From contig JAJYYI010000097.1 of the NCBI GenBank assembly GCA_021801125.1, positions 1-41,485 on the forward strand: a stretch of DNA of 41,485 nt. The letters are read 5' to 3'. This document shows positions 36,882-41,485 of this stretch, piece by piece. The position numbers and the translations under genes are program-made. This DNA is from Deltaproteobacteria bacterium (lineage in GTDB: Bacteria; Desulfobacterota; Binatia; Binatales; Binataceae). How positions within the stretch are numbered: position 1 is the stretch's first letter; each line of letters starts with the position of its first letter. The notes below the pieces were generated by a model, which had not been told where the DNA came from, ran no database searches, and saw only the letters and a list, made by a program, of their open reading frames with translations.

Positions 36882-37487
36882 ATGAGCAAACGGCCAATTT
36901 CAGAGCAGCTTGCGGCCCGCGTGCCACCCGGTCAGGTCTTGACGGACAAGTTTCCGGTCCTAACCTACGGCCCGACGCCGCCGTTTGATCCCCGCACGTG
37001 GGACTTCCGCGTCTTCGGCTTGGTGGAGATGCCCTTGCGTCTCACCTACGAGGAGTTCCACGCCCTGCCGAGAAGCGAGATGGTTGCGGATTTCCATTGC
37101 GTGACCACCTGGTCGCGGCTCGACAACCGATGGGAAGGGGTGCGGATCGCCGATCTAATGCAGTTGGTGCGGCTTGCTCCCGAGGCGCGCTTCGTGATCG
37201 TCCACTGCGACGGTGACTACACGACTAATCTGCCCCTGCATGAGTTTCTGGACGAAGACACGATGCTCGCGTACCGTCACGACGGTCGCGATCTCGAGCC
37301 GGACCACGGCTATCCTCTTCGGCTGGTGGTGCCGAAGCTCTACGGGTGGAAGAGCGCCAAGTGGGTGCGGGCGTTGGAATTTTCCGCCAACGACCAGCGC
37401 GGCTTCTGGGAGGTCCGTGGCTACCACAATCATGCCGATCCATGGAAAGAAGAGCGCTACTCCTTTCAGGAAGAGCAGGAAGATTGA
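36882..37487 (+). CDS. Sulfite-oxidase-like molybdopterin-dependent oxidoreductase
   Basis: A 201-residue protein consisting of a single sulfite-oxidase-type molybdopterin domain. Cys73 (ADFHCVTTWSRLDNRW) is the expected molybdenum ligand, and the WEGV, HCDGDYTTNLPL, LAYRHDGRDLEPDHGYPLRLVVPKLYGWKSAKWV stretches (residues about 84-165) match the compact YuiH-like group. There is no Tat signal or haem domain, so it is probably cytoplasmic, unlike periplasmic MsrP. The physiological substrate of this group is not well established. The ATG follows CGGA closely. A possible structured leader lies upstream. Confidence 0.9.
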   Translation: MSKRPISEQLAARVPPGQVLTDKFPVLTYGPTPPFDPRTWDFRVFGLVEMPLRLTYEEFHALPRSEMVADFHCVTTWSRLDNRWEGVRIADLMQLVRLAPEARFVIVHCDGDYTTNLPLHEFLDEDTMLAYRHDGRDLEPDHGYPLRLVVPKLYGWKSAKWVRALEFSANDQRGFWEVRGYHNHADPWKEERYSFQEEQED

Positions 37488-39112: not shown

Positions 39113-39520
39113 GACTTTAATTGAGCGTAATCAATCTCACGCGCGGTTTCCAGATGCTTGGGTTGCGATGCTGTTCTGTCGTGAATGCGCGTGCCGCGTC
39201 TTCATGCCGGCCCCCTTCAACCGTTCTGCCATTCTGAGCTCGACCGGTATGCGCTCGGTTCTGATAACGTGGTTGTCGAGCCCGCATGAGCAGATCGTGC
39301 CGCGGAGCTGCCATGTCTATCAAGCCCATGTCCACAAGGTCGCTCTTAAAATCAACTTTTCCGCGCATCCGCTTAGGCAACAAATGCAGCCGAAAAACAT
39401 TCAGCAGATGTTAACTGATTTTTCCCGGATGACTGCTAATTTGATAAAATGCATTTCCATAGGCTGCTGATTAAAGTTAGGTGAGAAATTTATGGCAGAA
39501 GTTTCGGCAATCAGGAAATC
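39113..39520. other. Divergent intergenic region ahead of the acetoin genes
   Basis: These 408 bp separate the zinc-ribbon protein gene from the acetolactate decarboxylase gene. The last 120 bp are AT-rich (for instance TTTGATAAAATG at 39440-39451) and probably hold the promoter, although I cannot assign a convincing -35/-10 pair. A 13-codon upstream ORF at the right end is listed separately. Nothing else is recognisable. Confidence 0.5.
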
Positions 39521-39533
39521 ATGGCGCACTTAA
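39492..39533 (+). promoter_or_regulatory. 13-codon upstream ORF overlapping the acetolactate decarboxylase start
   Basis: ATG at 39492, preceded by AGGTGAG (39479-39485) at a 6-nt spacing, opens the peptide MAEVSAIRKSWRT and ends in TAA at 39531-39533, 13 nt past the ATG of the next gene in another frame. Its ribosome binding site is at least as good as that of the main gene, so it may affect translation by coupling. Confidence 0.35.
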
Positions 39534-40351
39534 GTTGCAGGCTGCCCGAAGGTTTATGGCGTGCGCTGAGTGAGAAAGCCCAGCGAGATGGAGAACCGGT
39601 TGGCCATATCGTGTCTCGTGCGTTGGCGGCGTATCTGCGGGTTAAACACGCGACGCTCTATCAAGTGTCGACCTCGAGCGCGCTGGTCGAAGGCGTATAT
39701 CAAGGTGCGGTGCGAATCGCCACGCTGCGCCAACACGGCAACCTGGGTCTGGGCACCTTCGACCACCTCGACGGTGAAATGGTGGTCGTGGATGACGAAT
39801 TCTTCCAGGTCCGGTCCGACGGCAGCGTCAGCCGCGCCGCAGACAACTTGCTGAGCCCATTCGCGGTCGTGGTCGATTTCCGGCCCGATCGTTTTCGCTC
39901 GCTGGAGCACTGCGCAAATCTAGCCCAACTGGAGGAAGGCTTCGAAGCGCTGCGCGATTCGCAGAATTTCGTCTTCGCGTTGCGTGTAGACGGCCGTTTC
40001 AGCCATGTGCGCACCCGTGCGATGTGTCGCAGTGAAGAAGGCGCACCGCTGGCCGCCGCTGCCGCACATCAGCCCGAGTTCGAGTTCGGCCCAGCGGAGG
40101 GCACGATGGTGGGTTTCTGGTCGCCGCAGTATATCAAGACGCTTAACGTCCCCGGCTACCATATGCATTTTCTCGACCGCGAGCGCCGACGTGGTGGGCA
40201 TCTGCTGGAATTCGCAGGCGACGGGCTTACGCTCGCTTGCGAGCGAATCTCCAGTCTCATGGTGGCTCTGCCGGAAACCGAAGAATTTGTCAAAGCTGAT
40301 TTCAGCGGCGACCCAAGCGCTGCTCTGGCCTATGCAGAAAAGGCCCATTAA
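39521..40351 (+). CDS. Acetolactate decarboxylase with an N-terminal ribbon-helix-helix-like segment
   Basis: Converts (S)-2-acetolactate to (R)-acetoin. Residues from about 45 to the C terminus match the zinc enzyme AlsD/BudA: LYQVSTSSALVEGVYQG, LGTFDHLDGEMVVVDDEFFQ (Glu86), FSHVRTR, and zinc ligands His214, His216 and His227 with the H-x-H-x10-H spacing of the Brevibacillus enzyme. The first 40 residues are extra. They read as a short strand (LSCRLP) and two helices, the pattern of a CopG/Arc ribbon-helix-helix DNA-binding domain. The ATG follows AGGA at 39512-39515. The acetolactate synthase gene overlaps its last 20 bases, so the two enzymes form an acetoin operon. Confidence 0.88.
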   Translation: MAHLSCRLPEGLWRALSEKAQRDGEPVGHIVSRALAAYLRVKHATLYQVSTSSALVEGVYQGAVRIATLRQHGNLGLGTFDHLDGEMVVVDDEFFQVRSDGSVSRAADNLLSPFAVVVDFRPDRFRSLEHCANLAQLEEGFEALRDSQNFVFALRVDGRFSHVRTRAMCRSEEGAPLAAAAAHQPEFEFGPAEGTMVGFWSPQYIKTLNVPGYHMHFLDRERRRGGHLLEFAGDGLTLACERISSLMVALPETEEFVKADFSGDPSAALAYAEKAH

Positions 40352-41485
40352 AGGAAAGACGACAGCCGCCTCCGAATGGTCTTGCGGCGCGCGCCTGCTG
40401 GTGCGCAGCCTCGAAGCGCAGGGGGTCAAATACGTTTTCGGAATCCCTGGCGCGAAGATCGACCGAGTATTCGAGGAACTGGCCGATTCGACCATCAAGC
40501 TCGTGGTGTGCCGCCATGAGCAAAACGCGGCATTCATCGCCGGCGGTATAGGGCGACTGACCGGCCGCGCCGGAGTTGCGCTCACCACATCCGGGCCAGG
40601 ATGCACCAACCTGGTGACGGGAATGGCGACGGCCAACTCCGAGGGCGACCCGATAGTGGCGATGAGCGGGGCGGTCGCTCTCGGCGACCGGCTTAAACAG
40701 GCTCATCAGTCGCTGGACGCCGTGAGCCTGACGCGTCCGGTAACCAAGTTCGCCGCCGAAGTCGTCTCGCCCACCGCCATTTCGGAGAGCCTTTGTAACG
40801 CGTTCCGAGCCGCGGAATCCGGTCGTCCGGGGGCCGCATTCCTGAGCCTTCCAAGCGACGTCATGAACGCGGAGACCAGCGCCACAGTATTGGCCCCGGC
40901 CAAGACGGTTGCTCTTGGGTCGGCTCCGATGAAAGCCATCAAAGAGACCGCGCGTATGCTCGAGGCGGCAAAGCGGCCGGTCCTGCTCATGGGCATGCTG
41001 GCCAGCCACCCCGAAAACGCCGCCGCGGTGCGCGCGTTGCTAGCTCGTCATCCGATGGCGGCGGTCAGCACGTTTCAGGGCACCGGAGTACTCTCGCGAG
41101 AGGAGCTTGGTTGCTTCGGCGGACGGGTGGGTCTGTTTAGCAACCAGCCTGCGGACCTGCTGTTGGACGCCGCTGACGTGGTGGTCAGCGTGGGCTTCGA
41201 CCCGATTGAGTACGATCCGGCGCTGTGGAACCGAGAGCATACGCACCGAGTGGTCCATATTGACCAGGTGGCGGCTGACTATGATGCCGCTTATCGGCCG
41301 GCCGTCGAACTGATGGGAGCAATCGCCGCAACCTTGAAGGCGCTGACCCGCGAACTCAAGCCGCGTCGCTCGACCGGTCATGAAGCGCTACTCCAAGAGA
41401 TTGCCAGGGAGCGAGAAGCGTTGGCCGCGACAGCCGCCGCTTTGCCTGCCGCACCGGTTCACCCGCTGCGAGTCGTGAATGAGTT
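40332..41485 (+). CDS. Acetolactate synthase, catabolic type (3' end cut by window)
   Basis: A thiamine-diphosphate enzyme that condenses two pyruvates to acetolactate. The 384 complete codons seen include the N-terminal ThDP-binding domain with catalytic Glu63 in CRHEQNAAFIAGG, GIPGAKIDRVFEEL, TSGPGCTNLVTG, QAHQSLDAVSLTRPVTKF and the central domain up to VNE. The sequence resembles the catabolic AlsS/BudB branch, which needs no FAD or regulatory subunit, and the upstream decarboxylase supports that. The ATG at 40332 lies inside the decarboxylase gene (20-bp overlap). The C-terminal ThDP domain continues beyond the window. Confidence 0.9.
   Translation, partial: MQKRPIKGKTTAASEWSCGARLLVRSLEAQGVKYVFGIPGAKIDRVFEELADSTIKLVVCRHEQNAAFIAGGIGRLTGRAGVALTTSGPGCTNLVTGMATANSEGDPIVAMSGAVALGDRLKQAHQSLDAVSLTRPVTKFAAEVVSPTAISESLCNAFRAAESGRPGAAFLSLPSDVMNAETSATVLAPAKTVALGSAPMKAIKETARMLEAAKRPVLLMGMLASHPENAAAVRALLARHPMAAVSTFQGTGVLSREELGCFGGRVGLFSNQPADLLLDAADVVVSVGFDPIEYDPALWNREHTHRVVHIDQVAADYDAAYRPAVELMGAIAATLKALTRELKPRRSTGHEALLQEIAREREALAATAAALPAAPVHPLRVVNE

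Follow-up and report, generated by a model that had tools for sequence, protein, structure and literature searches.

The gene at the right end of the DNA analysed here encodes a predicted acetolactate decarboxylase (ALDC) that carries a ribbon-helix-helix (RHH) domain at its N-terminus. The stretch, referred to below as the window, is the whole of contig C29 (41,485 bases) of a 3.5-Mb genome. The protein is a bona fide RHH–enzyme fusion with a layout comparable to that of PutA, yet it is not a member of the PutA family. Few enzymes carry a fused DNA-binding domain, the textbook example with an RHH domain being PutA. Another, unrelated enzyme with a PutA-type N-terminal module would be a probe of how enzymes gain and lose a role as regulators. 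RHH-ALDC, with copies in numerous genomes and on a plasmid from Ancylobacter polymorphus ZM13, is also a candidate regulator that responds to acetolactate, and a compact one.

The decarboxylase and its N-terminal domain

The gene and its parts are laid out as follows.

39521..40351, + strand: budA, RHH–acetolactate decarboxylase fusion of 276 aa, at the right end of the window (open frame, ATG start)
39513..39516, + strand: AGGA at 4 nt from the budA ATG, probably the ribosome binding site (by eye)
39521..39652, + strand: RHH domain by homology, residues 1-44, with a DNA-facing strand at about residues 3-8 (by alignment), helix 1 at 10-23 and helix 2 at 27-39 (profiles, AlphaFold2)
39656..40306, + strand: predicted ALDC domain, residues 46-262, or 45-262 in the TIGR01252 match (Pfam, alignments)

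The initial annotation had described a complete zinc-dependent decarboxylase at this position, and both the profile matches and the conserved residues bear this out. On the full budA protein, PF03306 scored 242.9 bits over the full-length domain (cut-off 25) and TIGR01252 scored 214.5 bits (cut-off 180.65). AAL_decarboxy was the sole Pfam family above its cut-off. His214, His216 and His227, which we take to be the zinc ligands, were invariant in alignments A1 and A4, as were Glu86 and Arg166, which are presumably catalytic. The nearest structures to a model of the catalytic domain were solved ALDCs, with a TM-score of 0.94 by target length against 5xne_B, at 32% identity. Residues 46-262 are, judged by homology, a full acetolactate decarboxylase, with predicted activity in converting acetolactate to acetoin. 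The likeness to BudA/AlsD proteins (e.g., 5xne, 4bt2 and 6inb) covers the whole catalytic domain and the adjoining acetolactate synthase. The fused segment is the difference: seven solved ALDC sequences matched the budA protein solely from residue 37-45 on. Proline and P5C dehydrogenase domains were absent from RHH-ALDC in the Pfam search, which places it outside the PutA family.

The N-terminal segment had been picked out for a strand-helix-helix pattern of the CopG type. Searched alone, the window's segment matched Pfam RHH_4 at E 0.049-0.068, under the gathering score, and the PHROG family 'Arc-like repressor' at E 4.9e-4. A profile of 8 of the 10 fused segments from the window's class (two near-copies omitted) matched CopG at E 0.003 over residues 1-38. 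In that search, 8ugc ranked above CopG at 1.9e-4, a score that adds up weak matches over repeated stretches, and chains of SUN domains came next at E 0.2-1. A profile of 18 segments, drawn from the 30 then in hand with near-copies thinned manually, matched EndoAI (1.3e-5), CopG (2.1e-5) and VapB26 (1.7e-4). The CopG-family protein 9kkd also lay within E 1.3e-5 to 1.7e-4, and the PutA RHH chains 2gpe, 2jxg and 2rbf were matched at E 0.02. Individually, 12 of the 18 segments matched RHH_1 at E ≤ 0.1 (best 7e-8), while the window's own segment matched RHH_4 only. Because profiles built with relatives match solved RHH proteins, we consider the RHH identity of residues 1-44 settled, with the fold assigned by homology. 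The strand-helix-helix domain is common to this segment and to the CopG, Arc, EndoAI and VapB repressors and antitoxins. Those proteins are stand-alone regulators or antitoxins with no enzyme attached, whereas the RHH domain of the window sits on an enzyme.

Structure prediction, which the initial annotation had proposed as a check, recovered the two helices in both constructs modeled, so the fold is not absent. AlphaFold2 placed them at residues 10-23 and 27-39 of the full protein (segment pLDDT 48-77 by block, from an alignment of 18 rows in which only the window row contained the segment). In the isolated 56-residue segment, run as a single sequence, they fell at 10-23 and 27-53 with a mean pLDDT of 72. 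The strand was not formed in these monomer models; residues 1-9 lacked a partner strand, as expected if the strand pairs only within a dimer. Among the Foldseek matches listed for the isolated model (50 of 143), the best E was 0.16 and none was significant. The chains at the top of that list are nearly all RHH proteins (Arc, CdbA, MatP, CopG, AmrZ, with PutA further down).

Distribution and selection of the fusion

The RHH-ALDC fusion was present in 38 of 404 genomes from four classes, with 34 N-termini read directly and 4 assigned by match range. In the window's class, ALDC was matched in 16 of 148 genomes and the segment was read in 10 of them; the copies of genomes G001 and G028 were without the N-terminal part, and four genomes had an unfused ALDC only. 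The class of genome G241 carried the fusion in 17 of 46 genomes (19 with an ALDC match; that of G538 starts at base 3 of its contig and that of G422 is a fragment). The classes of G463 and G522 carried it in 5 of 155 and 6 of 55 genomes, respectively, and for these 11 the N-terminus was read in 7 and taken from match range in G694, G696, G726 and G730. Across 395 genomes sampled from the phylum, every match that reached the segment fell in these same four classes. Outside the phylum, we found the fusion on plasmid pB of Ancylobacter polymorphus ZM13, the one record that covered the segment among the 15 listed of 171 matching plasmid records. This budA includes an RHH-like segment and, like that of the window, has alsS next downstream; the record's own annotation places the budA start before the segment. 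A Rhizobium match from residue 18 proved on reading to have no RHH segment, and none was seen in 50 genome-contig loci inspected by eye. The search for the same fusion elsewhere, also suggested by the initial annotation, thus turned up relatives in four classes and a plasmid, and we regard the fusion as real because it recurs in many relatives and on the plasmid of another phylum. We found no description of an RHH-ALDC fusion in the literature searched.

We compared the segments of different lineages using 120 N-termini, 29 fused and 91 unfused, which included 48 of the 50 genome-contig loci. A profile of the ten window-class segments matched 19 of 19 fused segments from other lineages at E ≤ 0.15, and 18 of the 19 at E ≤ 0.008, with the best unfused N-terminus at 0.52. 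The reverse profile matched 10 of 10 window-class segments at E ≤ 0.0014 (best unfused 0.083), and the outcome was the same when 5 further fused segments were used (best unfused E 0.063). With unfused ALDC N-termini serving as negatives, this test led us to reject a chance resemblance to RHH domains. A quick tree built from the ALDC domains of 119 rows, which carried long-branch warnings, divided the 29 fused proteins found first among four groups, implying at least 4 changes. Forcing these 29 into a single clade cost 44 log units and was not rejected by the AU test (p-AU 0.062). Recurrent gain and one gain followed by losses are both possible.

The segment is a real part of the protein under purifying selection and is somewhat freer than the enzyme domain. 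Over its 43 codons, the window compared with G003 gave pN 0.22 and pS 0.73, the latter near saturation. The segment had pN < pS in nine pairs that we chose, and its pN exceeded that of the enzyme domain in 7 of the 9. On the strength of this selection and of the presence of the segment in relatives, we rejected a downstream start for budA. The low scores of the window's segment by itself, under the Pfam cut-offs, would suit an artefact in which the true start lies downstream, the segment is untranslated or the resemblance arose by chance. That explanation is extremely improbable in the face of a pN well below pS, the profile matches to solved RHH proteins, and the reading of the same segment in 34 genomes and in a plasmid record annotated with the upstream budA start.

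The DNA face and possible roles of the domain

RHH folds are dimers, and RHH proteins contact DNA through alternate residues of the ribbon strand. In the window, the residues on this DNA face are H3, S5 and R7, all polar or basic. Position 7 was R, K or H in 10 of 10 members of the window's class and no acid occurred at positions 3, 5 or 7, although five of those ten are near-identical copies from genus g16, which leaves about six independent sequences. Profile position 7 corresponds to residue 9 of the PutA chain, provided that the equal-length spans 2-41 and 4-43 are gap-free. Lys9 of PutA reportedly features in the title of a paper on DNA recognition. From these residues, the DNA face of the window's protein looks competent, and DNA binding is plausible for its lineage.

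The G241 class has a different face. Position 5 was acidic in 15 of its 17 segments and position 7 was F or L in 14 of the 17, while the helices and turn persisted. None of the four G241-class genes adjoining alsS had a basic residue at position 7 (S, F, F, F). In G463 and G522, the DNA face was ambiguous (A; T, T, S). Given the residues at positions 5 and 7 of the G241 class, DNA binding is not general to the fusion. It appears doubtful for most of that class, where dimerisation would be the simpler role, and the mostly acidic or hydrophobic face suggests that the domain can persist without DNA contacts.

Trifunctional PutA has the same layout as RHH-ALDC, with an N-terminal RHH domain before a catabolic enzyme, and in both an enzyme domain and a DNA-binding-type domain share one chain, as in trigger enzymes. 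The enzyme parts are unrelated, with proline and P5C dehydrogenase domains in PutA and ALDC here. No counterpart of the PutA membrane switch is known for RHH-ALDC, and DNA binding by RHH-ALDC is putative. Autogenous repression is known for PutA (PMC5293562) and is proposed for RHH-ALDC. When the E. coli PutA RHH domain was fused to a monomeric PutA, the latter became dimeric with its catalytic properties unaffected (PMC5293562).

We give about an even chance to RHH-ALDC being a bifunctional trigger enzyme of the PutA kind, whose RHH domain pairs ALDC subunits, binds DNA and tunes its own operon. In this mechanism, the N-terminal CopG/Arc-type domain would pair two ALDC subunits through an intermolecular β ribbon. 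In the window's lineage, the ribbon (H3, S5, R7) would bind DNA, most likely within the 408 bases upstream of budA-alsS, and the ALDC would thereby repress or tune its own budA-alsS operon. The signal could be acetolactate bound in the ALDC active site. The parts of the proposal differ in strength. Dimerisation through the RHH domain, judged from the fold, is very probable, and DNA binding in the window's lineage is slightly favored. Autoregulation of its own operon falls somewhat short of an even chance, and control by acetolactate as a ligand is speculative. The initial annotation had named self-regulation of the acetoin operon or a simple dimerisation role, and support for these is partial. 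H3, S5 and R7 look competent for DNA binding, but the search upstream yielded no operator with statistical support.

The RHH domain might instead serve solely as a dimerisation module that joins or stabilises two ALDC subunits and has lost its DNA contacts, which we hold to be a substantial possibility though not the expected one. This would fit the dimeric nature of RHH folds, the conversion of monomeric PutA to a dimer noted above, the retention of helices and turn in the G241 class behind a mostly acidic or hydrophobic face, and the position of many fused genes directly behind another gene (see below). The basic residue at position 7 in 10 of 10 members of the window's class (about six independent sequences) argues against it, since such conservation goes beyond the need of a mere dimeriser.

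Returning to the trigger-enzyme proposal, the same data can be read across lineages. Tentatively, and at less than an even chance, RHH-ALDC may form a class of self-regulating metabolic enzyme, a repressor-enzyme that senses acetolactate and controls the acetoin operon in two phyla or more, with one lineage keeping DNA binding and another having stripped the DNA face to leave a dimeriser only. If true, this would provide a natural series from a regulator-enzyme to a plain dimer.

Gene neighbourhood and upstream DNA

The surroundings of budA in the window include the following features.

40332..41484, + strand: alsS/budB, catabolic acetolactate synthase with TPP_enzyme N and M domains, which begins inside the end of budA and is truncated by the contig edge
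38321-39112, - strand: divergent gene upstream of budA, zinc-ribbon protein (PF13240, Pfam), with a hydrophobic segment by eye
36882-37487, + strand: stand-alone sulfite-oxidase-type molybdopterin domain protein (PF00174, Pfam)
39399-39407 (-), 39433-39441 (+) and 39464-39472 (+): three CTGCTRAWT boxes, weak operator candidate, 3 of the window's 4 matches, within 74 bases (39399..39472)

The overlap of budA with a catabolic alsS agrees with the acetoin-operon setting given in the initial annotation. AlsS was the best NCBIfam match of the downstream gene, under its cut-off, with 371 of 556 profile positions present. A full alsS match adjoined the fused gene in 5 of 34 genomes (the window's, G241, G544, G556 and G532), a count made on flanks of sometimes just 0.5-1.5 kb, and G003 had an alsS fragment near its fused gene. 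The budA matches of G001 and G028 and the alsS matches of G001 and G003 were truncated or in pieces (loci L078 for G001, L072 for G003 and L079 for G028). The acetoin locus in the window's family may be decaying, or these may be assembly errors.

The gene context of the fusion was not conserved among genomes. In 7 of the 10 window-class members (G003, G010, G042, G027, G016, G032 and G034), the match is preceded at a distance of about 35 bases or less by the end of a same-strand frame, so that these copies have hardly any space for a separate promoter; the start of the G010 budA lies on the stop codon of the gene before it. In genus g16 (L075, L080), an RND permease is followed by one gene and then by RHH-ALDC, with a gap before RHH-ALDC of 10 bases in G027 and G016 and 295 in G071. 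The gene in between looks like a putative pump adaptor, and an RND efflux neighbourhood is an odd setting for an acetoin enzyme. Nine G241-class proteins have E at both position 3 and position 5; for 8 of these 9, the match begins within 11 bases of the end of a frame of >450 codons.

In the window, budA has a 408-base region of its own between the divergent gene and its start. We found no close inverted repeat in these 408 bases, and a sigma-70 scan upstream of budA returned 0 promoters. An extended -10 element is suggested, by eye only, by TGATAAAAT at 39442-39450. The CTGCTRAWT boxes are no more than a lead as an operator. Their clustering was not significant, since 21 of 300 shuffles and 60 of 690 sliding windows reached it, and in 5 fused relatives the 300 bases ahead of the gene contained none at up to 1 mismatch.

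The RHH domain could also bind DNA elsewhere, acting on other genes or pairing with a stand-alone RHH protein. A region upstream of the window's budA with no supported operator, and a neighbourhood that varies among the genomes with the fusion, are both compatible with this. Autogenous control is common among RHH repressors, which counts against it, and we think it unlikely.

Upstream of budA in G241 (L110), a perfect 10-base palindrome, CCAATATTGG, was seen by eye between promoter-like hexamers, and G363 retains the central part of it.

Another ALDC, this one unfused, is encoded in the window's genome at C35:119152-119784 (L002), and its N-terminus appears signal-peptide-like by eye. Many unfused ALDCs in the loci that we read (cf. 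L138-L148) have lipoprotein- or signal-like N-termini, so some genomes would pair an exported-looking ALDC with a cytoplasmic, RHH-fused one.
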